From positions 11,720,105 to 11,784,104 of the forward strand of contig OU452214.1 in assembly GCA_911728435.2 (NCBI GenBank): DNA of 64,000 nucleotides, written 5' to 3'. Below the pieces are notes generated by a model. It searched no databases. It was not told where the DNA came from and worked only from the letters and a program-made list of their open reading frames with translations. The DNA is from Apoderus coryli (taxonomy: Eukaryota > Arthropoda > Insecta > Coleoptera > Attelabidae). This document shows, in pieces, positions 3,123-23,589 of the stretch (positions are counted from its first letter, which is position 1; each line of letters starts with the position of its first letter). The position numbers were made by a program, and so were the translations under genes.

Positions 3123-3848
3123 TACAGAGTGGCCCATTAGTGTGTGGACGGAATATATCTCAAGATCTATAAGCGATAGACAAAAAAATCCTTTACAAAA
3201 CTTTTAGGCACCGATGAGATGTACAACCTAAAAATGTTTTCAATTATACAGGGTAGTTCACAAACGCGCAGCAGACTAAACTTAATTTTTCTTAATGCGA
3301 CACCCTGTATGTTTTAACATAAATAAATGCCGCTCTAAAAGACAAGAAAAATGCCATGAGGGTTGATATGCAGTAGTTTTTGAAATATTTGTAAATAAGA
3401 GTGAATTTTGAGATAAATTCAAGGCGTTGTGGGTGAAAACCAAAAATATACCAATTTTTCGTGTCAGGTGCTTTTGAATTCTTTTGTATTCTCCCCGTTT
3501 TACTGGATTTTATTGACATCTGATTTGTAATTTTTTAGGGTGGTCACATTTTCTAAATTGTATTTTTTTTTTGGGAAAATGTTAAATTCGAGAGGTCCCT
3601 TTGTTATTATACTTTTTATTGATATCATATGTCATGAGTTTAAGGCTAACCTTCTTTCATAAAAAATTATTAAAAAAAAAGAAAAAAATTGCCCACAAAA
3701 GTAATTTTTATTTTTTTTTCTATTTAACTACAAAAAAATTAAATAATAGACGCTTTTAAAAAAAAGCAAAAGCTCTTCCACAAAATATCTTTAATAATCT
3801 TGGAATAAAACTCAGTCACATCCACCAAATTGTTTAATTAAAATTATA

Positions 3849-3882
3849 GACATGTTTCGACCTTAGCTAAGGTCATCATCAG
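3849..3882 (-). ncRNA. Hammerhead-ribozyme motif, stem I decayed
   Basis: On the minus strand the core CTGATGA, a strong palindromic stem II (GACCTTAGCTAAGGTC), GAAAC and the site GTC occur in order. The bases flanking the core pair poorly as stem I, so this arm copy is probably inactive. Confidence 0.5.
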
Positions 3883-4084
3883 TTTAAACTTATCATATAC
3901 ATAGCCAGCGATGGCGTCTTGCAGGATGTCGAATTCCAGAGGATGTAGCAGTGATGCGAGCTGCATCACATTACTTCAACCTCAACTTGCAAGACCTCAA
4001 ACTGAAGTTCATCCATATGCAGCTCACATCCTCTGAAATTCGACATCCTGCAAAACGCCATCGCTGGCTATGTATATGATAAGG

Positions 4085-4128
4085 TTATACTGATGATGAT
4101 CTTAGCTAAGGTCGAAACATGTCTATAA
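4085..4128 (+). ncRNA. Hammerhead-ribozyme motif (Penelope type)
   Basis: Order of elements: stem I 5' strand TTATA, core CTGATGA (4090-4096), stem II GATCTTAGCTAAGGTC, GAAAC, cleavage triplet GTC, then the stem I 3' strand TATAA. Stem I pairs perfectly over 5 bp. Stem III is minimal and self-complementary (ACATGT), as in hammerheads that act as dimers. Confidence 0.7.
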
Positions 4129-4436
4129 TTTTAATTAAACAATTTGGTGGATGTGACTGAGTTTTATTCCAAGAAATTGCTCATCCACAGAGAGATGGAC
4201 TACTTCATCAAAATCTTTAATAATACTAGATTGTTTGAATCGCCAATTTTTGTAGATGATGGTTTTTTGGTACACACACAAAAAAAAATCTAAAAACAAT
4301 TTTTTTTTTACATCAAATAGCTTTGATAAGATTGAAACAAAAAATCGAATCTTTATTGAACTAATAAGATATCATTTCTCTATTATGATCAACTGCTTCA
4401 CACAACTAAGGCCAAGCCCTTCTATAATGATTGTTT

Positions 4437-4479
4437 GCCACTGATGATTTTAGCGCTGTACTGACGAAACATGTATGGC
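4437..4479 (+). ncRNA. Hammerhead-ribozyme motif
   Basis: The core CTGATGA at 4441 is preceded by GCCA. GAAACATGTA is followed by TGGC, giving a 4-bp stem I different from its neighbours. Stem II is weak (TTAG with CTGA, including a G-U pair). Confidence 0.55.
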
Positions 4480-4546
4480 TATTGAAATAATCTAGTATTA
4501 TTAATGATATTTTGTGGAAGAGACCTGTTTAATTCAGAGTTCCTCC

Positions 4547-4870
4547 GTTAATACATTGCAGAACACTTGCGAAAATTATTTCAATTTTATACATAAAAAT
4601 TTGACTAAAAATAAAAATTTAATTTATGGGCTTCCATATTGGAATGATTAACAAGAAGAAAATAAAATTGTTTGGCTCAATGAAGCCCATAAATTAAATT
4701 TTTATTTTTATTCAAATTTTTATGTATAAAATTTAAATAATTTTCGCAAGTGTTCTGCAATGTTTAACGGATTTTATGATGTCACTGATGATGAGGATAT
4801 AACCCTCGAAACATGTATGACTGACTGTCGATATTGAAAAATATATATGGTTTACTTGTGGAGCAGACGT
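4547..4870. mobile_element. Third palindromic Penelope-like fragment
   Basis: Arms at about 4547-4650 and 4680-4775 are inverted copies around GGGCTTCC and GAAGCCC. The right arm continues into a hammerhead motif at 4781-4821. The left arm lacks it and appears truncated. Confidence 0.5.
4781..4821 (+). ncRNA. Hammerhead-ribozyme motif
   Basis: GTCA, CTGATGA, stem II GAGG-loop-CCTC, GAAAC, ATGTA, TGAC. Stem I pairs GTCA with TGAC, and stem II pairs 4 bp. All core positions fit the hammerhead consensus. Confidence 0.65.
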
Positions 4871-5477
4871 CGTTTTAATAATTCTATATCTATTTATATT
4901 TTTAAGAGCGTCAATTTGTAAATGATTGAAATAAAGTGGTAATTTAACTTTTTTGTTTTTAAATAGAAAAAAAAAATGATTAAATTGCCAAAAAATTGCG
5001 AGATTCGTTTGGCAATTTTTTCTTTTTTTTAATATTTTTTTATGAAAAAACGATTTGCCTTAAACTCATAAAATATGATCAATAAAAAGTATAGAAAAGG
5101 GACTTTTCGAATTTAGGCAGATATATGGGTTGTCCCATTTAAAATTTCCCAAAAAAAAAAGTACAATTTAGAAAATGTGATCACCCTGAAAAATTACAAA
5201 TCAGAGGTCAATGAGATCCAGTAAAACGAAGTAAAGAAGGGAATTCGAATGGACCTGATACGAATGTATGTCAAAATTAAACTTATTTACTTTTTCTTGT
5301 CTATTGGAGCGTCATTTATTTATGTTAAAATATACAGGGTGTCGCGCGCGTTAAGAAAAAGCAAGTTTAGTTTGAGGTGCGTTTGTGAACTACCCTGTAT
5401 ATTTGAAAACATTTTTGGGTTGTGCATGTCTACAGCACCTAAAAGTTTTGTATCGCGCACTAATGGGCCACCCTGTA

Positions 5478-5701
5478 TAATACCCTTTAAATTTTTTTGC
5501 TGAGTAGGAAGAAATGTGTTGGATTTTTATATTATTAAATGTTTTTCTACATTTACAATGCAAAACTGATGCCTAAATTAAAGAAATAACCACCATAAGG
5601 TATGGGAAAACGCCGATGGAACTAAAAGTTACATTTCAAGCTCGAACTCCTTCAGGCAAGTACCTACTCTGCGTGTTAATATCACGTATTGAGGCGCAAG
5701 C
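5478..5701. other. Unassigned spacer
   Basis: No feature was recognised between the long-TIR transposon and the hAT MITE target site. Confidence 0.4.
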
Positions 5702-5709
5702 GGTGTAAA

Positions 5710-6451
5710 TAGGGATGGCAACGATATATCGATATATTTTAATCGATATATCGAAACAAATATCGATATATCGGTACATTATCAAAATAAATGTATCTGC
5801 TACAGCTGCTTTCTTTCGCTAGTTTTCTTGGTCCGGATTTATTAGTCAGGATTTGTTGGATTTCTGAAGGCTCGATAAGTTTAGCTAAAAGAGTCACGGG
5901 GATTACGTATCGGGATCGCGATGGGCGCTAAAGTGGGGATGAATCAGAAAATGCGTTTTTAGCGAAAGAACATGTGAATCCAAACGCGTTTGGATCCTGA
6001 AATCAGTAGCGAAAGAAAGTAGCTTACATACACAGGTTTAAAACTAAAAGGTCTTTGTTGTGTTGCCGTAGCAGTCGACGCACACAACAAAAAATCGAAA
6101 TCGTCTAACTGGAAATAGATTATCAAAATTATTATTTCTAAGTTCTGTTCTGTTCATAACCTGATGTAATTATTTCTAAAGAATATACTTACGTTTGTTT
6201 GGAATGCATATTATTAGTATTTTCAGGCAAATAAATTTTAATGAATACTATTTTATTTAATTATTTGAATCTTTAAAATTTGAAGTTAATTTACAACTAC
6301 AATCTACTCTAAAATAAAAATATAGCAAATATATCGATATATATATAAAATATTGATATTTTTAATTCGATATATCGAGTGTATCGATATATAGTTTCGA
6401 TATATCTTTTGATTCAATATATCGATATATTTATTTATTTTGCCATCCCTA
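5710..6451. mobile_element. hAT-type MITE, 742 bp, perfect 12-bp TIRs and 8-bp TSD
   Basis: The left end TAGGGATGGCAA (5710-5721) is the exact reverse complement of TTGCCATCCCTA (6440-6451). The element is flanked by direct 8-bp repeats GGTGTAAA at 5702-5709 and 6452-6459. An 8-bp TSD and TAGGG-type ends are hallmarks of the hAT superfamily. Both subterminal regions are rich in ATCGATATATCGAT-like palindromes, which could be transposase binding sites. There is no transposase reading frame, so it is non-autonomous. Confidence 0.9.
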
Positions 6452-6459
6452 GGTGTAAA

Positions 6460-7524
6460 TGTAAAAATGATGATAATCTTAACACAAATATCGTTTTTCC
6501 TTTGGCAAGTTGGTGTTGGTGAGAGGCTCCTACAGTTCACAACGTTTTTGTTCGTAATTTATCAGTTTATATATTATACACTTTATAATATTAAATTAAT
6601 TATTGTTATTATTAAATTTTAGCTGTAAATGTTTTATTTATATTGTAAGCTTGGTAGGATGGGTGACGATTTTTTTTTTGTTTTACTTTGTTCATATATT
6701 GTTTGTTTGATAATTTTAGTATATCCAGAGAAAAATACGAAAGTCTGTGTTTTTATTCTTACAATTTCTAAAATTTTCACTCGTTCCTGCTAAGCAAAGT
6801 AAGTGTTCTAACAAACTTTTTTTTTATTATGTCTGTGACTTTTATTATTGTTTATATTTTACACAAACAAATAATACTCATTTACGGTTTAGATATTTGG
6901 AAAGTTAGCCTAACAATTTTATCAATTACTATAAATATGATGATGAAATATTTAAATTTTAATAAATATTCGGTGTTAGACTAGAACATCATTTCGTTTT
7001 TCTTCAACCCTCTTCAGTTATGTTAACGTAAAAATACTACGAAGTCAAATAGAACATTTTTGGCAAAATGTTCCTGTTCTTTTTTGTTTATTCAAGCAGC
7101 AAAACGACACCTCAATTCTTTTATACTTTTAAAATATTTTTCAATAAATCCGAATTTCGCCTCAAATTAAATTTGGACTGGGGCCTCATCTTGTTGCCAA
7201 AGTAAATTTTGAAAATAATTGAGGGTAATCCGTCAATCAAATTACCCTGTCATTAACTAAATTAACACGCAACACCACCAGAATTATTTCTCCATGAACG
7301 TTTAACTGGTAAGTAAATTCGTGGGTTGTTTGACCCATAGTGAAGATCAGGGTCTTGGTGGATAATTGTCAGCATTATTTGACAAAATTCCAAACGCCGT
7401 TGCTTATCAATAGCAGTCAAATATTAATTAATTCTCATTATTTTGACTGAACTCAATAATTAGCAGTCACGCATAAACATATTCCAAAGTAAATAGTTAT
7501 CAGTGGTGATTGGCAGGCAGTGTG
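6460..7524. other. Unassigned AT-rich spacer
   Basis: No supported gene. Short frames here lack family features or splice context. Confidence 0.4.
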
Positions 7525-7534
7525 ACCCAAACTT

Positions 7535-9440
7535 TTTTTTTTTTTTTTTGATATCAGCCAAGGCAGAGAAATCATCATGACACCTAGGGTGTTCCTTACC
7601 ACTTCCCTAGGTAGTGTGGGACTCTAACCCAAACTAAAACTCTGCCTTATCTTTGTAGTATGGCTCGGGAACCCTCCCTTTTCCATGTCCTCGCTTGATT
7701 GTCTTCTGTTGCTGTTGTCTTCTAATGTTAATTGTCGTCTGTTGCTGTTGTTCTCTGTTGGTGGTGCCTAGTACACTCTGAAACATACCTTTAGATGAGT
7801 ATACCTGACCTGAAAGAAACAATAATAATTGGTGTCCTAATCCTGTGGATTCCTTCGTCAAAGTTGACTCCTCGATCTCCGGTACCGCCTGGCACCGTCT
7901 TCTACGTTGTAGTTGACTGCTTCGCGAATCAGTGGGTTTGCATGGGTCTCTGCCATTGCAAAGACCTTCTGGGCTCTCAACCTCATGACGTCCCTGAGGG
8001 CGTCGAGTTTGAGATCCCTTCGGATCTGTGCGTTTGACACAAACCAGGGTGCACCCACTGCCATCCTTCTTGCCTTATTCTCCGTGGCCTCCAATCGTGT
8101 CTGTCAGGTACGATGGTGCCGCGTATCCCCATACTGAACTGGCATAGGTCAAGGCAAGTCGCATGACTGCCCTAACCAGTTGGAGCTTGACCTGCAAGGG
8201 CATCTTGTTCCTTCTGCAGATCATCGGGTAGAGCTTCGACATGATGCCTTTGGCATTCGCGATGCTCTTCTCGATGTGCGGTGTCCATGACAGGGATCTG
8301 TCCAAAGTTACCCCCAGGTACTTTGCAGTGTCCTGCCATTGTATGTCAGTACCCTCGTTGTTGACGAAGTCGTCGGGGCGCACTTGTCTTCTTCTGATGA
8401 GGAGCGCGGTGCTCTTCTCGGCATTAATCTTGGTCTTCCACCTGGTGCACCATTCGGTAAAGTTGTCCGCTGCTCGCTCTAGGTATCTTGTCACCAATTC
8501 CGCACTGCGACTGCGGGCAATCAGGGCGGTGTCATCTGCGTAGAGTGCCAAGGTGTTCTGGTCTGTCCTTGGGATGTCACTGGTAAAGATGGAGAAAAGA
8601 TGGGGGGATAGTACGGACCCCTGCGGCACGCCGGCCTCCAGGGTCCGTGATTCCGAGACCTCCTTCCCTGTCCTGACGCGAATTTGCCTGTCCTGTAGGT
8701 AGGAGTCTGCTAGCTTGATCATCGCTGGTGGGTATCTTAATGTGTGCATCTTATAGATGAGTCCTTCCTGCCAGACCCTGTCGAAGGCTCTGGCCACATC
8801 CAGAAATACGATTCCCGTGACCTGGCGCCAGTTTAGTCCTTGTGCTGCATGCTCAACGAGTCTTAGCAGTTGCAACTCCGTGTTGTGATTGGCTCTGAAC
8901 CCAAACTGCTCGTCGGGGATTACTTCCAGTTCATCCGAGAACTCGCGAAGTCGTCAGAGGATAATTCGTTCTGCTATCTTGGACAGGGCGTTCAGTAAAC
9001 TGATGGGCCTGTAGTTCTGAGGGAACTTCAGGTCCTTGCCCTGCTTAGGTAGCATCACTACTATAGCCTCTTTCCACTTCGCAGGAAAGTGTCCCAGTCG
9101 TAAGATGCCGTTGATGATGGTCGCAATTCCTGCAATGCCCTTCCTCGGCAACAGTTTTAGCGCCTTGTTGCTAATTCCGTCGGGGCCTGGTGCCTTCTTT
9201 ATCTTCTGGTGGTGGATTATGCTCCGTATTTCTTCAGTGGTTGCTGGTCTTAGTGGTTCTCCTTCCATGTCCCGCCGCCTGACCTGTCTAACAAACCTGT
9301 GGGCCTCGTCCTCTAGCTCCTCGTCGTCGTCAGGATGTATATTCTCCCTACACTCCCTTTCAAGGCAGTCAGCAAATGCCTCAGCCTTTTCTTGGTCCGT
9401 GTAGACGATCCTTCCTCTTTCCCCATGAATGGAGGGTACA
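7535..9440 (-). mobile_element. 5'-truncated Jockey-like non-LTR retrotransposon
   Basis: A poly-A tail (T-run at 7535-7549 on the plus strand) marks the 3' end. Direct repeats ACCCAAACTT at 7525-7534 and 9441-9450 form a 10-bp TSD, fixing both ends. On the minus strand the RT opens at the 5' junction: APGPDGIS and NYRPISLL blocks (9440-8954), then after a lesion FLDVARAFDRVW, GVPQGSVLSP and YADDTAL (8875-8075), then a C-terminal piece (8094-7858) in another frame. Endonuclease and ORF1 are absent, as expected from 5' truncation. A second copy lies at 30107. The GC content is well above its surroundings. Confidence 0.9.
8075..9440 (-). pseudogene. Reverse transcriptase pseudogene of the Jockey-like element
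   Basis: The RT is broken into at least three frames: 9440-8954, 8875-8075 and 8094-7858. Catalytic blocks remain visible, including YADD in fingers-palm order. The first break falls just after the NYRPISLLNALSKIAERII region, and the second before the thumb/C-terminal segment. It cannot encode a full enzyme without frame changes, and it lacks the N-terminal endonuclease. It would have copied the element's own RNA at a nicked target. Confidence 0.85.
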
Positions 9441-9600
9441 ACCCAAACTTCCAACATTTACAAAGAGCTTATACTAGCACGAGAATTGATTGAGAGAGAG
9501 ATGTTTTAGGCGACACCTAACGTGAACAGGCAATGTTGACTTAAATGATGTAAATAACATAACGATTTAATTGACATAACGATGTAATTAACATAAACGA

Positions 9601-11029
9601 CACAGCGGGTATTGATGGCATTCCATCATTGTTCGTCAAGGACTGTGTTGGGGCCCTGTCTGTTCCATTATTGCACATATACCGTATGATCCTGTCCTCC
9701 TGCACATTCCCGAATATCTGGAAGAGGGCTAGAGTCACACCCGTGTTGAAAAAAGGTGATAGGAGTTTAGTGTCCAACTATCGCTCTATATCGCTACTCT
9801 GTAACTTCTCCAAGCTTTTTGAAGTAATCATCCATGACTACATATCTGGACGAGTTCGAAGGGTTCTGGCAGAGGAGCAATACGGGTTTCTGCCGGGAAG
9901 ATCGTATTGATCACTACGTGTTGTTGTCTAAACTCAGGATGGTTGGGCTATCGCGGCCCCTTGTCAATTTACTTAAATCATATCTTCTGGACAGAGTGCA
10001 GTTTGTCGAATATGAGGGCTTCAGATCGTACGAGTTTGTGGCTACTTCGGGAGTACCACAGGGTTCAAATCTTGGTCCGTTATTATTTACCATTTTCATA
10101 GATGACCTCATCAAAAAAATTAAAGGCTGTAGGCTCGCTTTTGCAGATGACCTCAAGCTTTATTCTTTAGGGTGAAGCATCCTGTATTGTATGAGTATAA
10201 ACTGGGTGATCAGGTTTTAAGCTGTGTGTCTGAGGTTACCGATTTGGGCGTCACTTTTGATGCTAGATTTTCATTTGTTCCTCACATAACCTCTGTGGTT
10301 CGGTCAGCGTCCAGTGCGCTGGGCTTCTTGTTGCGCAATTGTAGGGACTTTAACAGTACCTCTACATTAAAGTTATTATATTGCGCTTTTGTCCGCAGCA
10401 AGCTGGAGTTTGCATCAGTTGTATGGCAGCCCCTCTACTATTGTCACGTCAGGAGCTTGGAAGCGGTACAAAAATATTTTTTTGAAGTACTTAGCTTTTA
10501 AGCAGGATGGAACATATCTAGTCAGAGGTATAGATCATCGTAGTTTGTTGGATCGATTTGACATGCTTCCGCTTAGTCAACGCAGAAGGATTAATTCCGT
10601 GAAACTTCTATATAATCTGATCCATAACACAGTGGATTCCGCATATTTGCTGTCAACCCTTAACTTTATTGTTCCTCGCATTGAATCAAGAACCTCTCTT
10701 GCATTCAGATTGAACACTCCTTATTCAAATGCTCTTCGACAGAGTCATATTTATTTTATGTGTGATTCGTACAATTCTTTCTCCAGTTCTGAGTGTGACA
10801 TATACGGTGATCCTCTTCCTAGAGTTATAGATGTTCTCCGTGCGTGAGCTTGGTTTTTTTTTCTTAGTGTATAATTGTGTGCTGAATTGTATTTTGTATT
10901 GTTTATACTTTAAGCTTGTATTTTATATTTTTAATTTTCCTTATGTTTTTTGATATCGTTGTATCTTTTTCCTATTAATGGGTCTCTGACCTGTTGGAAA
11001 TAAAGGTTATTATTATTATTATTATTAAC
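9601..11029 (+). mobile_element. 5'-truncated non-LTR retrotransposon with (ATT)n tail
   Basis: The RT begins abruptly in the AGIDGIPS block at 9605, then NYRSISLL, GVPQGSNLGPLLF and FADDLKLYS, followed by a C-terminal domain to about 10847. Several frame changes (near 9900, 10172 and 10500) break it. Part of the palm between FLPGRS and the SKL segment is deleted. The 3' end is TTATTATTATTATTATTATT at 11008-11029 after an AATAAAGG signal. Minisatellite sequence ACGATGTAATT-ACATAAACGAC flanks both sides, so the element landed inside that array. It belongs to the same broad Jockey/CR1-like group as the copy at 47758. Confidence 0.85.
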
Positions 11030-11078
11030 GATGTAATTGACATAAACGACGTAAATGACAACCGATGTAAATGATATA

Positions 11079-11535
11079 AGGGTTATTCTTTCGTACTGAA
11101 CTAAGTGAACAATCTGAAAATTGTCAGTTCATTCACGATTGTGTGTATTCTTTCGACATCGGTCACTTCTACCAAACTGATTAAAATTCCTACCCCCGTT
11201 GCCGCTTACTGATCAACCTCTAGGTACCGGTTAGGTCGTTCAGTTAACAGTTAACCTCTAAAAGTATTGAATATTGAGAGATAATAATTGGAATATGATT
11301 TCGAATCAAACCAATATATCGCAAAAGTTTAAAACATGGATAATAATATCATGGAAGATATAATTTCCCAGTTTTCAGAGCAGATTTAGTTGTTTTCACA
11401 AGATTTCGAGGTTAAGTGAAAGACAATCACAAAAAAGATGATCTTTCGGTTTCGCAAAATATTCAGTTCAGTATAATCACATTCAGTTTAATCACATTCA
11501 CTTGTTCAGATCAATCACTACGAAAGAATAACCCT
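11079..11535. mobile_element. MITE with 17-bp TIRs inserted in minisatellite
   Basis: AGGGTTATTCTTTCGTA (11079-11095) is the exact inverse of TACGAAAGAATAACCCT (11519-11535). ATA lies on both sides (11076-11078, 11536-11538), a possible 3-bp TSD. Minisatellite DNA flanks it on both sides. There is no reading frame inside. The superfamily is uncertain (PIF/Harbinger-like TSD size). Confidence 0.8.
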
Positions 11536-11538
11536 ATA

Positions 11539-12995
11539 AACGACTTAAATGATGTAAATAACATAACGATTTAATTGACATAAACGATGTAAATGATATA
11601 AACGACATAAGTGACAAACAATGTAAATAACACAACGATGTAATTAACATAAACAATGTAAATTACATAAACGACGTAAATGACAAACGATGTAATTGAC
11701 ATAAACGGCGTAAATGACAAACGATGTAAATAACACAACGATGTAATTGACATAAACGATGTAAATGACATAAACGACGTAAATGACAAACGATGTGATT
11801 GACATAAACGACGTAAATGACAAACGATGTGATTGACATAAACGACGTAAATGACAAACGATGTGATTGACATAAACGACGTAAATGACAAACGATGTAA
11901 ATAACACAACGATGTAATTGACATAAACGATGTAAATGACATAAACGACGTAAATGACAAACGATGTAAATAACACAACGATGTAATTGACATAAACGAT
12001 GTAAATGACATAAACGACGTAAATGACAAACGATGTAATTGACATAAACGACGTAAATGACAAACGATGTAAATAACAACGATGTAATTGACATAAACGA
12101 CGTAAATGACAAACGATGTAATTGACATAAACGACGTAAATGACAAACGATGTAAATAACACAACGATGTAATTGACATAAACGATGTAAATGACATAAA
12201 CGACGTAAATGACAAACGATGTAAATAACACAACGATGTAATTGACATAAACGACGTAAATGACAAACGATGTAAATAACACAACGATGTAATTGACATA
12301 AACGACGTAAATGACAAACGATGTGATTGACATAAACGACGTAAATGACAAACGATGTAAATAACACAACGATGTAATTGACATAAACGATGTAAATGAC
12401 ATAAAGGACGTAAATGACAAACGATGTAATTGACATAAACGACGTAAATGACAAACGATGTGATTGACATAAACGACGTAAATGACAAACGATGTAAATA
12501 ACACAACGATGTAATTGACATAAACGATGTAAATGACATAAACGACGTAAATGACAAACGATGTAAATAACAACGATGTAATTGACATAAACGACGTAAA
12601 TGACAAACGATGTAATTGACATAAACGACGTAAATGACAAACGATGTAAATAACACAACGATGTAATTGACATAAACGATGTAAATGACATAAACGACGT
12701 AAATGACAAACGATGTAAATAACAACGATGTAATTGACATAAACGACGTAAATGACAAACGATGTAATTGACATAAACGGCGTAAATGACAAACGATGTA
12801 ATTGACATAAACGACGTAAATGACAAACGATGTAAATAACACAACGATGTAATTGACATAAACGACTTAAATGACAAACGATGTAAATAACACAACGATG
12901 TAATTGACATAAACGATGTAAATGACGTAAACGATGTAAATGACATAACGATGTAATTGACATAAACGATGTAATTGGCATTAACGACGTGTATG
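11539..12995. repeat. Minisatellite, alternating 16- and 18-bp units
   Basis: The array is built from CATAAACGACGTAAATGA- and AACGATGTAATTGA-like units, with interspersed AACGATGTAAATAACACAACG blocks forming a higher-order pattern. Outliers at 9538-9600 and 11030-11078 show the array once extended left and was split by two insertions. The minus strand is free of stops in all three frames over more than 1.2 kb, purely because of unit composition. The unit CATAAACGACGTAAATGA differs at three positions from the 18-bp unit at 22 kb. Confidence 0.95.
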
Positions 12996-13294
12996 TCATT
13001 TACATTGGTGATAACATCGCGGGGCCATCAAGCGCGTGACTTTGAGAGGCACCATTTTCGTGGTCTTGGAACCTTAGCGTTTTCTCATGTTATTTTCTAT
13101 AAGAAATGTTTCCAGCATATCTACTGACAAAGTTACACATTGTGTAGGTATACGAGTATGTAATTCTTTTGGAACATATCTATATATATTAAAGAATTAT
13201 ATTTTAAAAGTATAAAATAATGAAGGTTTTCTATTATATGATCTAGACTTCTTAAGTTTGGGTTATTGTTTCTATATTATTGTTAATTATATAG

Positions 13295-16200
13295 CAAAAA
13301 ATAAAAAGAGACTGGAATCGATCAATGAACTCATCCAAACGGAAAGAGCGTACGTTGAAGACATGTCGATTGTGCATCGCGTGTTTGAGTTACCGTTGAG
13401 AAAAAGCCGAATTATAACCGAACAAAATGTTGATGAAATATTCGTCAATTGGCAGGATATTTTGGTATGCAATAAGGACTTTCTCATGGAACTAACTGAA
13501 GCATTCGAAAGTGGTAGAGGAATTGTTGGCGATGTTATTTGCAGGCATGTAAGTAACATTTATTATAAAACCTGATTCACTCTAATCTTCAAAGAAAACA
13601 GAGTAAAACTGGGCATGGATATCTACTCGTTATTCGCGTAATACCGAAATTTAATTCGAAATCTGTTTACACACCCGACACAAGTGCAAATACCTAATTA
13701 ATACTAGCGTAAACTAAATCTGACAACGATGTCACAATCGAACTAAATTATTCAATATGACAACTATGACAAGTGGCATTTTTTAAATGAATTATTTGTA
13801 TAATTGTAAAAATTTATGGAAAAAACGTACTTAAAATGATTCTACACAAAAGGCTGCAACAGCCTAGAACAGGCTATTCTTGAACAATTAATGATCCGAG
13901 GCATAGTCTTCTAAATTAGCACAGCTTAGCCTCACTTCTTTGTTCAGTTGAACTGATTTGATATGGTCAATTTGTGCTCAGTTGCTACTTAACTTCTCAG
14001 TTAATTGTCAACTAATAAAAATGCTGATATTGACGTTGAAGGATAACAAATGTCAATGTTACCAACATGCAAAAAAAAAAAGTGAAGTTAATGTCTTAGT
14101 AGCGGTACAAAATAATAAATCTGTCGATAGTTTTTTTGATTCTTTAAATACTCAGCTATATTGTTTTGTAAAAACGTTAAGTTTAGAATATTTGATATAA
14201 AATAAAGGCAGCCAAGATCTATTGACCGTTTGTTACAAAATAAATGATCACGGAGGTTATGCATCTATTCCGAAGGACCAACAGATTGGGAGAAGTACCT
14301 GACTTGAATGTGTTTGTATTTCAGTTACCACGAATGACGGCGTACATAACATTTTGTGGCAAACAATTGGACAGTGCGAATTTATTACAAAATCTCACTG
14401 AGACTTCAACTCCATTTAAGGAGTTAGTAAAAAAGTGTCAAAATAACGTAGCCACTAAAGGTATGCCTTTGTCATCGTTTTTAATCAAACCCATGCAAAG
14501 AATAACGCGATATCCGTTGTTGATTGGGAAAATCCTGGAAAATACTTCAGAAGAACACGAAGGTAAGTACATATCGCCGCCATTATTAATATTTTGCAGT
14601 TACGTAATATTCCCTCTAGATTACACCTACCTGCAGGAGTCGTTAAAAGTAGCAGAAAAGTTCCTGAGTTGTGTCAACGAGAACGTGCGCCAACGAGAGA
14701 ATCAAAAACGCATGGATTGGCTACAACAGCACATTCAGAATGATCTCAATTTAATGTTTAATAGTAACACAAACAAATTGGGACCGAGACAATTGTTGCA
14801 CTTCGGTGTATTTACCAAATTGAAAAATAATAAGGAACTGATTGGGTTTCTGTTTAACGATTTCTTGTTGCTGGTGCAACCCAGCAAGAGCTTGGGAACG
14901 CAATTCTCATTCCAGACGAATTGTAACGTTATTTTCAAAATGTACAAGCAGCCGATATTCGTGAACAGTCTCACAGTGACTCGGGAGAGTTCTGACAACG
15001 TGGAAACGGGGACTGATTCGAATCGGGTGCTGAGAGTTCAAGATGAGAAAAGCGGATATAAAATATTGGTTTTGGCTGGTACAGTGAATGAGTGTAGTTT
15101 GTGGATGAAGAAAGTGGAAAGTGCAAAGGAAATGTTTACGAAAATTTATAATTTGAGTCGGCAGAACAAACGGAAAACGCGTAAGTTGTACATTTTGTAG
15201 CGCTTTTATTTATTTATTATCTTTTTTTTTATTTTTTTCTTTTTTTTTCCTTTTTTTTATTTTTTCTTTTTTTATTTTTTTGTTCTATTTTTTATTTTTT
15301 TTTCTTTTCTTTATTTTTTCTTTCTTTTTTTTTTTTATTTTTTTTATTTTTTTTTTTATTTTTTATTTTTTTTTTTTATTTTTTTTTTATTTTTTTTTTT
15401 TTTTTTATTTTTTCTTTTTTGTCTTTTTTTTTATTTTTATTATTTTTTTTATACCATTATTTGGTTTTTGGTTCGTATTAACAACAAAAGTGAAATAACT
15501 TTTTTTTATTTCATGGGAAAACAGAAATCTAATGAGATGTTGCAAGACTAATAGAAAAAAAATCTTGCAGAAGACAAAAATTTGTTTGCCGAAACGTCGA
15601 AGAAAAAAAAGTTTAACATGAATTAAAAAAAAAATGTGGTTCAAGAAAAATAAGGAAAGAAAAACTTTTATTTATTGTTTGTTTTGCAATGTATTTGTTT
15701 TTCTTTTTTATCTACCTTTGGAAGTCATAACTAGTTTTAAACTTAATCCATTTCAATTGAATTGGGTAAATATTGGGTGGGATACTGTAGAATCTGATGA
15801 ATTTCATATGATTCTCTCTCAGTTCGCGGTTAAATCCTTTAACCATGTGTTTAATCGGGTAGAACTTGACCAAATCGAAAGAAACTGTTTAAATTTCCGT
15901 GGAATTTGGTAGAATAGAAACCAAACCCAACCCTACTCAAACCAAAGCCAACCCAACCCATACCCATAGAGTCGAGAGAACTTGTTGATTCGGGTGGAAT
16001 TTTTCTGATTCGGAATAAATCGTTAAAAAATACGTGGAATTTGGTCAGATCGGTTGGGTCGGGTGGGATTTGTGTATTAGTTTTGGAAATGAAACTGTAT
16101 AATTCCCCAAAATCTCCACCGGAGTATCCTAGTGTGCATGTAGGTGAACTGATTGATACGATTATTATCTCAAACGCTCAACAACATCAAAGCTTTCTTC

Positions 16201-16973
16201 CATGCTACTAGGGCCATTTGCGGCCTCTCTGCATAGAGTCTTAACCCACTGCAAACCAGGGATGGCTCTCGTCTTCTAAGGGATTGCACGTCAATTGGTT
16301 CCCGGTGGAACGAACTACTAAACAGTAAACTGAAACCCGTTTTACCACTTCACCAAAACATGGAACTCCTTGTATATTATTATTTTTTTTTTTGATTTTC
16401 CAGAAGATTATAACAATATTTGAAAAAAAAGAAAAAAAAAAACACAAAAATTAAAAAAAAACTAAAAAATAAAAAAACAAAAAAACGAAAAGAAAAAAAA
16501 CAAAAAAATACAAAAATTAAAAAAACTAAAAAAGAAAAAAAAAACAAAAAAATACAAAAACTAAAAAATAAAAAACAAAAAGAAAAAAAAAATAAAGAAC
16601 AAAAAATTAATTTTCAGAATTATATTTCTAAGGAAAAAGAAAGAATTTGCCTACTATTTGTGGAAAAGGATGTTTTGTTTTATCAAAAATTAATTCATGA
16701 ATAATTTTTTCAAAAACTTTACCAAAAACTTTTAGTTTACAAATAGGACGATAATTTCTAATATTGTTCCTATCGCCACTATTAAATTATGGAGCACAAA
16801 TGATTTCTTCCATCCTGCTGGGCAGACTCCAATCAGCAATATTTTCATTAAATTCTCATTCATCAGCCACTGGTGACCAAACTATGCTGGACGAATTGAA
16901 ATGTTAGAAAAAAAAAGGGAAAAACAAAAATAAAAAAAACAAAAAAAAATTAAAAAAAAACAAAAAGAAAAAA

Positions 16974-17010
<37 letters not shown>

Positions 17011-20000
17011 AAAAAAAAAAAAAAAGGAAAAAACAAAAAAACACAAAAATTAAAAAAGCAAAAAATAAAAAAAACAAAAATAAAAAAAAAACAAAGGAAA
17101 AAAAGCAAAAATAAAAAAAAAAACAAAGGAAAAAAAAACAAAAAATTAATAAAAAAACAAAAAATTAAATTTCAGAATTATATTTCTAAGGAAAAAGAAA
17201 GAATTTGCCTACTATTTGTGGAAAAGGATGTTTTGTTTTATCAAAAATTAATTCATGAATAATTTTTTCAAAAACTTGACCAAAAACGTTTAGTTGACAA
17301 ATAGGACGATAATTTCTAATATTGTTCCTATCGCCACTATTAAATTATGGATCACAAATGATAACTTCCATCCTGCTGGGCAGACTCCAATCAGCAATAT
17401 TTTCATTAAATTCTCATTTATCAGCCACTGGTGACCAAACTATGCTCGACGAATTGAAATGTTAGAAAAAAAAGGGAAAAACAAAAATAAAAAAAAATAA
17501 AAAAACAAAAAAACAAAAATAAAAAAAAAAACAAAAAAAAAAATATATATAAAAAAAAAACAAAAAAAAGAAAAAAAAAACAAGAAATTAATTTGCAAAA
17601 TTATGTTTCTGAGGACAAAGAAAGAATTTGCCTACTATCTGTGGAAAAGGATGTCGTTTATAAGATGTTTTGTTACATCAAAAATTAATTCATGAATAAT
17701 TTTTTCAAAAACTTTACCATAAACGTTTAGTTTACAAATAGGACGATAATTTCTAATATTGTTCCTATCGCCACTATTAAATTATGGATCACAAATGATT
17801 TCTTCCATCCTGCTGGGCAGACTCAAATCCGCAATATTTTTATTAAATTCTCATTCATCAGCCACTGGTGACCAAACTATGCTGGACGAATTGAAATGTT
17901 AGAAAAAAAGGGAAAAACAAAAATAAAAAAAACAAAAAAATAAAAAAAACAAAAAAAATAAAAAAAAAACAAAACAAAGGAAAAAACAGAAAAATTAAAA
18001 AAGCAAAAAAAAAAAAAAACACAAAAAAAAAACAAACAAAAAAAAAAAAAAAAAGGAAAAAAACCTACACAAACACAAAAAAAAAAAATACAAAAACAAA
18101 AAAAAAAAATCAAGAAATTAATTTGCAAAATTATGTTTCTGAGGACAAAGAAAGAAATTAATTCATGAATAATTTTTTCAAAAACTTGACCAAAAACGTT
18201 TAGTTTACAAATAGGACGATAATTTCTAATATTGTTCCTATCGCCACTAGTAAATTATGGATCACAAATGATTTCTTCCATCCTACTGGGCAGACTCCAA
18301 TCAGCAATATTTTCATTAAATTCTCATTCATCAGCCACTGGTGACCAAACTATGCTCGACGAATTGAAATGTTAGAAAAAAAAGGGAAAAACAAAAATAA
18401 AAAAAAAAAACAAAAAAATAAAAAAAAACAAAAAAAAATAAAAAAAAACAAAAAGAAAAAAACAAAAAAACACAAAAATTAAAAAAGCAAAAAATAAAAA
18501 AAATAAAATAAAAAAAACAAAAATAAAAAAAAAAACAAAGGAAAAAAAAATCAAGAAATTAATTTGCAAAATTATGTTTCTGAGGACAAAGAAAGAAATT
18601 AATTCATGAATAATTTTTACAAAAACTTGACCAAAAACGTTTAGTTGACAAATAGGACGATAATTTCTAATATTGTTCCTATCGCCCCTATTTAAATTAT
18701 GGATCACAAATGATTTCTTCCATCCTGCTGGGCATACTCGCAATCAGCAATATTTTCATTAAATTCTGATTCATCAGCCACTGGTGACGACCAAACAATG
18801 CTGGACAAATTGAAATGTTAAAGTTATAATATTTGTTTGACTCTTCTAAATGTTTTTATAATTAATTATTTTGCATTTGTATTGTAGTTCGTTTATAGTA
18901 TATGTTTAAGTATTGATGAGCATAATTTTGTGCAGAACTCCATTTGGGTCCAACCATTGGTCGCCTGCTTGTGTTTGTCCAAAAAGGGAAACGCTTAATT
19001 TCTGCTAGTGGTAAGAAACACCTGATTAAATAAAATTTTGCGTTTTTGCATGTTTTTCAGTTCTAACTTCCGGTAGATGGTTGTATTTAACACTTGTAGA
19101 CTGTAATGATATTTTAGTGGTATGCAATCGGCAAACATGTAGTTTAGCACGAAAGAAAGGTACAGAGGAAATATATTTATATGCAGTATGTACAAGATGA
19201 GAAGGGATGGACTTTGTCACTTATTATTCGTCTTCCCGGCACTTGGAGTATGTACCAGGAAGATCTTACAATATTTTGATTAAAAGACTTGCTCTTATTC
19301 CCTTCTTATCGTGGACAACTCTAGGAAATCAATTAGTTGTGATTGTTTTAGTCCTCAAAAGTCTTGTGCGGAAATAATGATTATTTTACAGGTAAACATC
19401 ACAGTGAGAATGTTTATTGTCGTGTTTCCTTGGGCAATCAGGAGCAAGAAACTGATTTTGCAAAAGATACGCTTAATAACGGTAGGTACTTGTTTTTATT
19501 GAATTATCAAGTTTTCTTGTGTTTACTTCATACAAAATGGCCCAATGAAACTGAAAATTGTTTTTTTTTTGTTGTACGTACCCCTTCGACGGAAGAGTGT
19601 TACCCACAGAATTTAAATAAATAAATAAACACTTGGTTTCAACTCCCATCACGCCGTCTGTATACGTGGCGAGCCCCAGCAGATAGTCCACAAAATTTAA
19701 TACGCAACCAAGTGGACTATATTCTTATCAATAGCCGATTTAAGTCGTCCATCAAGAGAGCCTGCACATACACCGGAGTACATTTTGTTTGCTGTTTGTT
19801 TCTTAATTTGTAGCGCTTTTATTTATTTTTTATCTTTTTTTTATTTTTTTATCTTTTTTTATTTTTTTCTTTCTTTTTTTATTTTTTTTTTATTTTTTCT
19901 TTTTTTTATTTTTTTTTATTTTTTCTTTTTTTTATTACTTTTTTTATTTTTTCTTTTTTTATTTTTTTTTTATTTTTTTTTATTTTTATTATTTTTGTTT

Positions 20001-21090
20001 ATATCATTATTGGGTTTTTCACAACTATAACTATACTCGAAAAGGCATCTGTTTCGTGTTCATTGGGCCACTTTGTATCACATCAATTGTTGAAGTCTAC
20101 ATTTACAAATGTTTAACAGGTAATATTATGCCGAATACCGGTGGATCTCCACAAATTCCAAGTTTAGTATGGAATTACAGTATGCAATTTCAACTGCGTA
20201 ATCTTACAGATGAAGTTTTAACGTTTGTCGTCATGGAGCAAAATCCATTTAGTTTGGACGGTAAAGTATTATATATTTTTTGGGGAGTGGGATGTGTTTT
20301 GTAGTTCAAAGGCATCTAAATATCTTTATATAGATGTTTGAATTAGCCAAACATGTTTCGGAACTTACTGTTTTTATCTTCAGTGGCATCAATAAATCTT
20401 ACAAAGAAATCTTACCGCCTAAGATATAAAATGGATATAAGGCTTTAGCAATCATACTATGCTGACGAACCACTTACCATTTTGTGGAAAAAACTTTTCT
20501 ATAATAGTAAAAAACTTGAGGTCAGGCATTAAAAAATTTTTTTTGGAAACTTAAATTAATTTAAAATTTTTTCAGTTTACTTTTTTCTTGGGGTGTTCGG
20601 TTCTTATAAAAATTTCTCTTTACTCTACATAAAAATATTTATATTTATTTTCGTCACTATCAAACAAAAATCATAACAAACGACGTTTCGTTACTAATTA
20701 TTAACTTCCTCAGGTTGAAACAACGTTTTTTTTTCCTTTTCTTTCTAGCACAAATTCCAATACGTCAATATCAGTAAAAGAAAATTGTTTGTCCCCGCTT
20801 AAGGGAGTATCGGCGCGTCTATGTGTTGGTAGTTGCTTTATGGGGTCAGTGACCTCCCAGGCAAATTATAACATAAAAATAATTCGGGTGGAATTGAGGA
20901 TTGTACGAAGCCCTATACAATCTTGTTTTTCTTTTTAGAATTTCTTGGGAGAGCCGAACTGAAACTGCACGACATATACAAGGAATCACAAAACACAAAC
21001 GGGCCATTGACAAAAAAGCTGATTCTACATCAAGTGGAATCAGGGGAAATTACGGTTAAACTCGATTTGCACATGTTTAACAATTATTAA
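13295..21090 (+). CDS. Dap160: Intersectin (long form), C-terminal DH-PH-C2 exons
   Basis: Seven exons in consistent phase: 13295-13548, 14325-14562, 14620-15180, 18936-19010, 19392-19481, 20120-20260 and 20939-21090 (TAA). All introns are GT-AG. Exons 1-2 encode a RhoGEF (DH) domain, with LIQTERAYVEDM at the start and KGMPLSSFLIKPMQRITRYP as the conserved helix. Exon 3 gives the end of DH and the PH domain (LGPRQLLHFG, GFLFNDFLLL). Exons 4-7 form the C2 domain (IGRLLVFVQKG, FLGRAELKLHDI). The order and motifs match ITSN1/2. Intersectin is an endocytic and exocytic scaffold at the plasma membrane whose DH-PH activates Cdc42. The N-terminal EH and SH3 exons lie left of the window. An AATAAA signal follows at about 21124. 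Intron 3 is about 3.75 kb of A/T tracts and RT fragments. As far as I recall, the fly Dap160 lacks this DH-PH-C2 tail. Confidence 0.92.
15204..15462. repeat. T-rich low-complexity tract
   Basis: Runs of T broken by single A or C lie in an intersectin intron. The block opens with TTGTAGCGCTTTTATTTATT (about 15196) and ends with TTTATTTTTATTATTTTT. The same opening and ending bracket the tract at 19809-20005. Confidence 0.85.
15568..15612 (+). ncRNA. Degraded hammerhead-like Penelope end
   Basis: GCAGAAGACAAAAATTTG, then GCCGAAACGTCGAAG, aligns with the better preserved motif at 23046/23435. The core CTGANGA has decayed here (GCAGAAGA), so it is a relic. Confidence 0.35.
16420..18830 (-). repeat. 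Array of five RT fragments separated by A-rich spacers
   Basis: A ~270-300-bp block recurs at about 16607-16895, 17167-17455, 17590-17895, 18113-18375 and 18555-18830. Oligo-A spacers of 130-270 bp with scattered C and G separate the blocks. On the minus strand each block encodes the same RT piece with CPAGWKKSF, RNNIRNYRPI and a VFEKIIHELI-like stretch, the conserved N-terminal RT block of non-LTR elements. Copies 4 and 5 share a deletion of the TTTGCCTACTATTTGTGG part. Copy 3 carries an extra ~14-bp stretch. The repeated RT-plus-A unit suggests tandem amplification rather than five insertions. Confidence 0.85.
19632..19785 (+). mobile_element. RTE-like endonuclease fragment
   Basis: It encodes NTWFQLPSRRLYTW, then RNQVDYILINSRF, a typical stretch of the AP-endonuclease domain of RTE-like elements. 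It is nearly identical to 42619-42772. This copy keeps 7 bases (ATATTCT) lost in the other, so it has the longer frame. It lies in an intersectin intron. Confidence 0.75.
19809..20005. repeat. T-rich low-complexity tract, partner of 15204
   Basis: It has the same leader (TTGTAGCGCTTTTATTTATT) and the same TTTTTATTATTTTT tail as the first tract, consistent with a local duplication within the intersectin gene. Confidence 0.75.
20346..20387 (-). ncRNA. Hammerhead-ribozyme motif
   Basis: Minus strand: GCCA, CTGAAGA, a stem II with AAC/GTT pairing, CGAAAC, ATGTT, TGGC. Stem I pairs GCCA with TGGC. It lies in an intersectin intron. Confidence 0.5.
20678..20717 (-). ncRNA. Hammerhead-ribozyme motif
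   Basis: Minus strand: AAC, CTGAGGA, stem II GTTA-loop-TAAC, GAAAC, GTC, GTTT. Stem I pairs 3 bp and stem II 4 bp. It shares an intron with the previous motif, so both may be ends of one Penelope-like relic. Confidence 0.5.
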
Positions 21091-21359
21091 TTTTGAGAAT
21101 GAAATCAAAGCGAAAAAAAAAAAAAATAAACTGTTGGATATTTATTTATACAAACTTGTTATAGAGAATATTTACATTTTGCATTTATGAACATTATTGT
21201 TAACTTTTATTATATTTCTAATATATTTGTATTAAACTTGGTTCAATTTTCGAACTTTATACGTAAAGAATTGATAAAAACACTTTAGAACCGACTCTAC
21301 TGTTAAGATTTAGGTTCCCCCTCGAGACACTTCGGATATGCGCTTTTTGGTATGGCCTT

Positions 21360-21860
21360 GAAGGCTACTCAATCATCGCGAAACACCGTACTTTTTTGAG
21401 TCTTTAATTTTTGGGAATAGCAGGGGGCAACTCCGGAGAATACAGTGTTCTTCGTATTTACGCAAACGGCGCATAACTTCAAGGTAATCTCCTTCATTAG
21501 ACGTACGAGCTTCGTTGTAATCAAGGAAAACAGTGAGCAAAACCTTCACATTTGATCAAACTTTAGGTTTTTCGGCTTTGGTTCTGCTGACTGCTTGCGT
21601 CATAACCATATTCCCATGTTTCCTAATAAGTTATGACCTTTTTGAGCAAATCTGGATCGTCGTTGACGTCAGCGCCTAAGCGATGCTCATGGGACGGTTC
21701 TTTTCATCAAAAACCATATGAAAAAACTGCATCTCAGCATTCTCTAATTTCCATAACAATTTTCTTCGCGGCGTCAACATTTGTTTGACGTGATGGGACG
21801 TTCAGGGCGAGCATCGTCATTCTGTCAGGGGCATATACCACTTAGAAACATTATTATGCT
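21360..21860 (-). pseudogene. Degenerate mariner transposase relic
   Basis: The minus strand reads VDAAKKIVMEI-like, DDPDLLKKVIT, ETWEYGYD, SQQNQSRKT, LLTVFLDYN and EVMRRLR in order, with several stops and frame changes. This is the central part of a mariner transposase, around the first catalytic block (normally GDESWVYGYD). The first catalytic D is altered. No TIRs were found. It lies just downstream of the intersectin stop. Confidence 0.65.
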
Positions 21861-22007
21861 GCCTGAAGTAGATGCGCCAAATGCCACAGCCAACATTTTA
21901 TGTGCGTTGGAGTAGTTCATTTTATTTTTCACACACAATTGAATACAAATTCTGTGATCCACGTTTAACCTTCATATCTGTCAAAAAAATACGTAAAATG
22001 GAGGAAA

Positions 22008-22770
22008 ATGTCTAATAAAGTCGACATAGATGGGGTTATGTACGATGACCTAAATGTCGCAAATGACATACATGTCGCAAAAGACATAAATGTCGTAAAT
22101 TACCTAAATGTCGCAAATGTCATAAATGTCGCAAATGACATAAAAGTCGAAAATGACATAAATGTCGCATATGACAAATGTCGTAAATGACCTAAATGTC
22201 GTAAATGACATAAAAGTCGCAAATGACGTAAAAGTCGCAAATGTCATAAATGTCGCATATGACATAAATGTCGTAAATGACATAAATGTCGTAAATGACC
22301 TAAATGTCGTAAATGACCTAAATGTCGCCAATGACATAAATGTCGCAAAAGACATAAATGTAAATGACCTAAATGTCGTAAATGTCATAAATGTCGCAAA
22401 TGACATAAAAGTCGAAAATGACATAAATGTCGTAAATGACCTAAATGTCGTAAATGACATAAATGTCACAAAAGACATAAATGTAAATGACCTAAATGTC
22501 GCAAATGTCATAAATGTCGCAAATGACATAAAAGTCGAAAATGACATAAATGTCGCAAATGACATAAAAGTCGAAAATGACATAAATGTCGCATATGACA
22601 TAAATGTCGTAAATGGCCTAAATGTCGTAAATGACATAAATGTCGCAAGACATAAATGTCGCAAGACATAAAAGTCGCAAATGACATAAAAGTCGCAAAT
22701 GACATAAATGTCGCATATGACATAAATGTCGTAAATGACCTAAATGTCGCAAATGACATAAATGTCGCAA
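22008..22770. repeat. 18-bp minisatellite (CATAAATGTCGNAAATGA)
   Basis: About 42 near-perfect 18-bp units alternate CGTAAATGAC, CGCAAATGAC and CGAAAATGAC variants. Since 18 is a multiple of three, both strands keep long open frames of repeated peptides. These are not credible genes. The unit matches the 12-kb minisatellite unit at 15 of 18 positions. Confidence 0.95.
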
Positions 22771-22780
22771 TATCAACCTA

Positions 22781-23036
22781 ACAAAAACGATAAATCGTAT
22801 GTACGTAACCCATGGTACAATGACTCTCTAGGTCTAGGTAGGATATCGTCTGGTTCAAAATAGGTAGAGTTCGCGCAGTGACGTCATCGGTGCCCAGCGA
22901 ATACTTGCATGCCATGCACACTGGTATATGAGCCTTGGATTTTAAATTACTTTTTACCACGCACAGGCACAGACGACGCCACACTCCCCCACCTACTTGA
23001 GCACAACCAGGGCAATATCTTACCTAGAGTTATTAA
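22781..23036. other. Unassigned spacer
   Basis: It is more GC-rich than its surroundings, but no family was recognised. Confidence 0.3.
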
Positions 23037-23120
23037 TTTTTTTTCCTGAAGAAGACAAGAATTTGTTTTCAAATTGAAGTTGGTTGGTTTTAGGTCAATT
23101 ATAGAAACAAAGTAATTCCT

Positions 23121-23161
23121 CTGTCGACGTTTCGACTTTTATTAAGTCATCCTCAGGACAG
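23121..23161 (-). ncRNA. Hammerhead-ribozyme motif, left arm
   Basis: Minus strand: CTGTC, CTGAGGA, stem II GACTT-loop-AAGTC, GAAAC, GTC, GACAG. Stem I pairs perfectly over 5 bp and stem II over 5 bp. Confidence 0.65.
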
Positions 23162-23299
23162 TGAACATTTTCATTCAGTTTTAGTTTATACACTATTAAA
23201 ATAAGAAAATATATGTTTAAAAGAAACCCCCTTTTTGATTTCATCATATGTAAATGTCCTTCACAATTGAAAACATTGACAAAAGAAACAAATTGTTCA

Positions 23300-23340
23300 C
23301 TGTCCTGAGGATGACTTAATAAAAGTCGAAACGTCGACAG
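23300..23340 (+). ncRNA. Hammerhead-ribozyme motif, right arm
   Basis: Mirror copy of the left-arm motif: CTGTC, CTGAGGA, GACTT-loop-AAGTC, GAAAC, GTC, GACAG. All paired segments are intact. Stem III is only ACGT, a self-complementary form suited to dimers. Confidence 0.68.
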
Positions 23341-23589
23341 AGGAATTACTTTGTTTCTATAATTGACCTAAAACCAACCAACTTCAATTTGAAAACACTT
23401 AGAGGTCACTAACACAACAGTTAAGAATTTGTTTGTCGAAACGTCGAAAAAAAAAAAGAAGGTTGACATGAAGTTAAAAAAGTAGAAATATTCGTGCCAG
23501 ATGTTTGAACATTTGGTGCAATTTAGAAAATATTATTTACAACTACTATACTAAATTTTTACAAAGAAATAACTAAATTTAAAAATACA

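Follow-up and report, generated by a model that had tools for sequence, protein, structure and literature searches.

The stretch of DNA analysed here, hereafter the window, comprises 64 kb of the 428-Mb genome of the beetle Apoderus coryli (C22:11720105-11784104; contig OU452214.1), and carries a dispersed family of sites that, judged from their core CUGANGA/GAA and an H17 other than G, are minimal type I hammerhead ribozymes. Eight complete cores (pattern CTGANGA..GAAAC) were found, at 3854-3882(-), 4090-4118(+), 4441-4470(+), 4785-4812(+), 20355-20383(-), 20685-20713(-), 23129-23156(-) and 23305-23332(+). Dinucleotide shuffles of the window (n=100) gave a mean of 0.72 cores and a maximum of 5, none of them reaching eight, and when stems I, II and III were demanded as well, six sites remained, where local shuffling left 0.02 per window and never more than 1 (100 shuffles). 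The original prediction, that hammerhead cores lie on both strands of this stretch, is thereby upheld against an AT-matched control, and all the complete sites it had listed were recovered. In the six intact sites stem III is a palindrome without a loop, ACATGT or ACGT, again as predicted, and H17 is C except in one site, where it is A, the descriptor scans having demanded a base other than G at this position. In all six, A9 and G10.1 are separated by an additional nucleotide (five T, one A), which had been overlooked.

Four of the six intact copies are arranged as inverted (head-to-head) pairs. Element A (3799..4212, plus strand) is a truncated copy of a Penelope-like element (PLE), made of an inverted pseudo-long terminal repeat (pseudo-LTR), an interior, a second pseudo-LTR with the hammerhead, and a tail. 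Its left inverted arm holds a minimal type I hammerhead on the minus strand (3844..3887) and its right arm another on the plus strand (4078..4135), both with stem III ACATGT and an extra T after A9. The tail (4195..4212, plus strand), ATGGACTACTTCATCAAA, corresponds to the first six PLE codons (MDYFIK), lies 71 nt 3' of the predicted cut, and may be compared with loci L063, L064 and L066-L068 elsewhere in the genome. Target-site duplications at 3787..3798 (ATCTTTAATAAT) and 4213..4224 flank the element, which was inserted in the left arm of an older element B (arms 3773-3798/4497-4522 and 4210-4245/4476-4512). The hammerhead of element B (4435..4482, plus strand) has kept its core, stem I (GCCA/TGGC) and stem III and has lost the outer stem II pair; a second degraded minimal hammerhead (20343..20389, minus strand) likewise keeps stem I GCCA/TGGC and ACATGT with a broken stem II. 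The pairing of these two sites, originally placed at 4437 and 20346, was judged by eye, and both match the covariance model R1 described below, so that core, stem I and stem III stand as first described while stem II is damaged. Two further intact sites are a minimal type I hammerhead at 4781..4821 (plus strand; stem III ACATGT, stem I GTCA/TGAC, extra T) and a minimal hammerhead at 20677..20718 (minus strand; stem III ACGT, extra A after A9).

Element D (23069..23422, plus strand) is a copy of 354 bp with a one-sided tail, and its two inverted arms, of 108 nt, are 99% identical to each other; the left arm bears a minimal hammerhead on the minus strand (23117..23165) and the right arm one on the plus strand (23296..23344), both with stem III ACGT and an extra T. 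It interrupts a ninth hammerhead, of the ACGT class, whose 5' half (23037..23068, plus strand) ends in the first copy of the target duplication (23057-23068, AAGAATTTGTTT) and whose 3' half follows the second copy (23423-23434) within 23423..23454 (plus strand). Rejoining the flanks (23037-23068 and 23435-23454) restores stems of 9, 6 and 2 pairs. The site formerly described at 23038/23456 is thus indeed a hammerhead, split by a 354-bp element with 12-bp duplications, a split that had gone unrecognised; the pairing of a T-run with an A-run, cited as its stem I, is weak evidence and is missing by eye from related cores at another locus, L069 (C1:1187600-1190300), where four ACGT-class cores, relatives of the split site, lie two per strand within about 0.6 kb. 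The window copies are truncated relics, one nested in another, and are probably inert. An outer inverted repeat (3458-3693 and 5011-5264, about 85% identical) surrounds the nested hammerhead elements, and a long inverted repeat at 4544-4771, with sub-threshold matches to plant microRNA families, is perhaps a piece of a fold-back transposon.

The same layout of inverted pseudo-LTR, interior of variable length and right pseudo-LTR with a longer tail recurs throughout the element A family, for which 132 matches were obtained (40 of 250 candidates scored), with arms mostly 93-99% identical and short ones down to 84%. The left arm is absent at two of 19 family loci, and the tail ends in ATGGACTACTTCATCAA. 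Target duplications could be counted in 15 copies, that of the window included, since 15 of the 19 loci gave both ends (L015, L019, L021 and L022 were omitted); eleven are of 12-13 bp, one of 11 bp and three of 6-8 bp, with a mean of 11.1 against 5.3 for mismatched flanks.

Genome-wide, the core pattern occurs 40,756 times in 428 Mb (95 per Mb), with a sizeable background of 5,217 for the reversed pattern. This mean of about 6.1 cores per 64 kb, compared with eight in the window, does not bear out the idea that the local density is unusual, and we would put the presence of all eight cores within 20 kb down to inverted pairs and nested insertions. The ACATGT class is far more specific: the pattern CTGANGA..CGAAACATGT is found 9,192 times, against once for its reversed form. 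An opposite-strand core lies within about 1.5 kb at 15 of 30 ACATGT loci.

The window fragments themselves carry no reverse transcriptase (RT), and the LINE-type RTs of the window (42768-43673 and 47906-49774, two of its six RVT_1 frames) were rejected as partners, their closest solved structures being LINE-1 and R2. A candidate parent was found at L062 (C1:938901-941600), where a 391-codon open frame with RT motifs (L062:694-1866) scores 33.0 bits with RVT_1 (cut-off 29.6) and aligns over most of its length, GIY-YIG domain included, to P0010 and P0016, proteins with both RVT_1 and GIY-YIG. The frame is flanked on both sides by inverted pseudo-LTRs with the ACATGT hammerhead and by an 11-bp duplication, and the insertion interrupts an adjoining LINE-type RT frame. 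Among the 106 of 3,268 candidates scored in a genome search with this frame, 37 lie in open frames of at least 850 codons, and many of the PLE matches form head-to-tail arrays with a spacing of about 3.3-3.5 kb (3.27-3.49 kb on C15). Of six leader regions taken from PLE copies whose open frames are long, five hold an intact hammerhead 72-101 nt before the start codon, and the proteins of these five begin MDYFFK, MDYFFN or MDYFLK. The head-to-head copies at L065 (C12:8785200-8786300) have frame starts almost facing each other and no hammerhead between them.

A start-codon motif lies at most 140 nt 3' of the predicted cut in 36 of 72 ACATGT sites, corresponding to 19 of 39 distinct ribozyme sequences and to 14 of 32 outside the element A family; it is placed 61-111 nt from the cut, and the background is 40 of 3,592 stretches. 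For the ACGT class, a GIY-YIG frame at L070 (27.7 bits, cut-off 22.6) is followed after about 0.6 kb by one of its sites, so that this class looks PLE-linked too, on one locus. The Penelope-like origin first proposed from the short stem III is therefore sustained by an RT/GIY-YIG frame with the same kind of ribozyme, by five of six leaders, and by insertion anatomy with target duplications.

Covariation was examined in an alignment (A1) of 20 sites outside the window, namely 19 of the 30 loci of the genome ACATGT scan plus L031, whose row is one column off in stem I; ten loci of subfamilies already aligned, L053 and the ACGT class were omitted. Pairs are formed in 88.3% of cells, against 64.2% in shuffled and 24.6-47.8% in slid controls, and two-sided changes number 47 against 13.4, with eight of nine pairs changed on both sides. 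The shuffles ignore kinship; the slid controls retain it, yet they tend to be beaten by any structure that was fitted to the sequences being scored. A set of 33 distinct ACATGT sites picked by core alone agrees: stem I pairs 1.1-1.4 are formed in 82-100% (shuffled 45-94%), with no excess over chance from pair 1.5 outward, and, with the base after A9 passed over, stem II pairs 2-5 reach 71-91%, against 36-57% in shuffles. If no base is passed over, not one site forms the first stem II pair, though the fourth is still above the shuffle (76% vs 45%). Ten ACGT-class sites show a like, weaker trend (z 1.5-3.1, inner pairs). Because the search pattern itself prescribes the stem III palindrome, which does not vary, covariation cannot test its pairing. 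The covariation formerly noted for stem I thus holds beyond the window, and includes stem II. A covariance model (R1) built from 20 sites outside the window, and not wholly independent of it because two of its rows, L031 and L049, belong to the respective families of element A and the site at 20346, matches the window at E<1e-7 at 4779+, 4084+, 3842-, 20343- and 4435+, and also picks up the ribozymes of L062, L063, L064, L066, L067 and L068.

Taken together, these results make it very probable that the ACATGT and ACGT sites are minimal type I hammerheads of Penelope-like retrotransposons, whose dimers in arrays would cleave and release unit-length RNA. The motif with its covariation and extra core base, the link to PLEs, the position in the leader, the duplications and the tandem arrays are observed; cleavage, dimer action and a role in processing are what we infer. 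The ribozyme sits in a pseudo-LTR, some 70-100 nt upstream of the start codon in those PLE copies whose open frames are long. Transcription through a head-to-tail array would yield RNA with several ribozymes on the same strand, two of which could pair through their palindromic stem III (ACATGT or ACGT) and then cleave, freeing unit-length RNA whose short leader is defined. As four of the six intact window copies are in head-to-head pairs, whose transcripts are predicted to hide the ribozyme in a long hairpin, dimer action would belong to head-to-tail arrays elsewhere.

Other origins of the motif must be weighed. The window is AT-rich (GC about 27-42% in 4-kb steps) and has many inverted repeats, and a T-run/A-run stem like that of the split site comes cheaply in such DNA; an accumulation of chance motifs is nevertheless extremely improbable given that eight cores were reached in none of 100 shuffles, given the genome-wide count of the ACATGT class over its reversed pattern, and given the covariation. 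The sites might instead be non-LTR retrozymes, short tandem repeats with a type I hammerhead each that spread as small circular RNAs using PLE enzymes in trans. These have the same core, they co-exist with PLEs as described in the available text of PMC7229834, and the crowding of four cores in L069 would suit them. Elements A and D, however, are inverted pairs with target duplications and not tandem repeats of 150-450 bp, element A and many of its relatives end inside PLE start codons, stem III is minimal and not canonical, and the L069 cores lie two on each strand, all of which renders retrozymes improbable here.

It might also be that only an ancestral PLE had an active ribozyme, and that the motif now persists without self-cleavage, as a binding site for a protein or endonuclease or by hitch-hiking. 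The truncation of the window copies is in keeping with such fossils, as are the results for PAc, a Penelope/Poseidon element of the anole, in which, according to the accessible part of a 2024 study, insertion in vitro did not require cleavage and RNA-seq showed no ends at the cut (PMC11167929). On the other hand, two-sided stem changes in many sequence types fit selection on a ribozyme better than sequence binding alone, most leaders of PLE copies with long open frames hold intact ribozymes, and the extra base is limited to T or A among the ACATGT sites listed. We regard persistence as fossils only as unlikely, if less so than retrozymes.

Several observations, the PAc results on insertion and RNA ends among them, weigh against the reading as PLE hammerheads that process RNA. 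In the same accessible text, cleavage of the PAc ribozyme was seen only with protein added (PMC11167929). Minimum-energy folding of two copies of element A, C or D gave other duplexes and no double hammerhead, and the inverted elements are predicted to form very stable hairpins (-275 kcal/mol for A, -195 kcal/mol for D); a long hairpin of this kind would bury the ribozyme in short inverted copies, which are hence probably inert. Pfam reports no GIY-YIG domain on the L062 frame itself, and the sixth PLE leader, at a head-to-head junction, is without a ribozyme. The start-codon motif is absent from 36 of the 72 ACATGT sites, of which inverted left arms without a tail would not be expected to have it, and at least one of the 36 sites with the motif (the L062 left arm) is a chance match in flanking DNA. 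R1 fails to separate the three complete ACGT sites of the window (E 0.037-0.099) from the next matches (0.096-0.46). Finally, the Rfam hammerhead models, which had been proposed as a check, matched nothing in the window, whether at the gathering score or even at E<=10, and they miss the minimal sites of L062, L063, L064, L066, L067, L036 and L039 too. Their silence fits the missing stem III loop, and bars calling the minimal sites canonical hammerheads; in all the stretches examined these models missed the minimal PLE class. A second hammerhead type was seen in L002 and L004 (1495-1538 in both), with a core without the extra base and the stem III palindrome ACGGCCGT; these canonical-looking sites score 33.8-33.9 bits, against an Rfam type I cut-off of 34, and several strings like them are among the genome core matches listed.

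The extra nucleotide after A9 is the feature we least expected; a descriptor allowing none finds no site in the window. Of the first 100 of the 9,192 ACATGT sites listed, 96 have T here, 4 have A and none has C or G, while the free core position N7 in the same sites is T in 83, A in 12, G in 4 and C in 1; this is no census, as the 100 sites come from one contig, comprise 74 distinct strings and count relatives by descent separately. In the 33 distinct ACATGT sites the extra base is T in 31 and A in two, and in ten distinct ACGT-class sites A in five, T in four and G in one. The plus-strand hammerhead of chrysanthemum chlorotic mottle viroid (CChMVd) likewise has an extra nucleotide between A9 and G10.1, A in the viroid where most beetle ACATGT sites have T; according to a review, U at this place made trans-cleavage 3-4-fold faster, and C or G was strongly detrimental (PMC3705267). 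The agreement between the T/A-only pattern and this ranking is suggestive, and is no proof of selection because the sites share descent and were picked by exact core. That selection maintains the extra base in the catalytic core, favouring U, tolerating A and excluding C and G, is a possibility that we put forward tentatively and with some doubt. If true, thousands of natural copies repeat a ranking measured by mutation in a viroid ribozyme, the extra base may allow useful cleavage rates in a hammerhead that lacks both the stem III loop and loop contacts, and one base would predict the activity of each PLE subfamily.

Another account of the extra base was rejected. It does not serve only to create the PLE start codon, as might be supposed from PAc, in which the frame begins at stem II, since the PLE frame starts 61-111 nt further on; frames from the ribozyme ATG were in no case open beyond 45 codons (62 sequences). 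A GAU/AUG alternative fold of the monomer would be broken by the A found at N7 in 12 of the 100 listed sites. A literature search on an extra nucleotide in PLE hammerheads led, in the papers inspected, only to citations of the 2001 viroid study, most subscription papers being outside its coverage.

Minimal type I hammerheads of Penelope-like elements have reportedly been described by Cervera and de la Pena in 2014 and by Lunse, Weinberg and Breaker in 2017. The available text of two reviews describes them as minimal type I ribozymes with little or no stem III, located in pseudo-LTRs and dispersed as thousands of copies in animal genomes, and proposes that they cleave as dimers (PMC7761336, PMC6155905). 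The beetle sites share the minimal type I form, the tiny stem III, the pseudo-LTR location and the thousands of copies, and belong to this already known kind. PAc resembles the beetle elements in its RT followed by GIY-YIG, its tandem copies, the tail at the insertion end and the hammerhead near the frame start, and differs in where the frame begins, the predicted cut in the beetle lying upstream of the start motif by the distance given above (PMC11167929, in the part available). Penelope elements of Adineta vaga, as far as the accessible text goes, similarly have inverted pseudo-LTRs and an optional tail (31 bp in one family) reaching into the frame, and their target duplications are of 8-10 bp, in contrast to the mostly 12-13 bp of the beetle; the available main text of that paper does not name the hammerhead (PMC3846280). 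No paper on PLE hammerheads in beetles was found by title and abstract opening, in searches that extended to Coleoptera and insects and whose coverage left out most subscription papers.

The remaining features of the window include an open frame at 14244-15200 with RhoGEF and PH domains, intersectin-like among beetle proteins, whose first named relatives are from Molorchus minor (66% identity), then Asbolus verrucosus and Popillia japonica, and two minisatellites with related-looking short units about 9 kb apart (11549-12981 and 21969-22780).

This analysis provides one genome with thousands of PLE hammerheads, some of them belonging to head-to-tail copies whose open frames are long. Within this genome the position of the ribozyme before the start codon, the extra U or A, and the arrangement of copies, head-to-tail or inverted, can be compared. 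The analysis makes testable the proposal that an extra core base offsets the missing stem III, and the proposal that messenger RNA of unit length arises from read-through transcripts by the action of PLE hammerheads.

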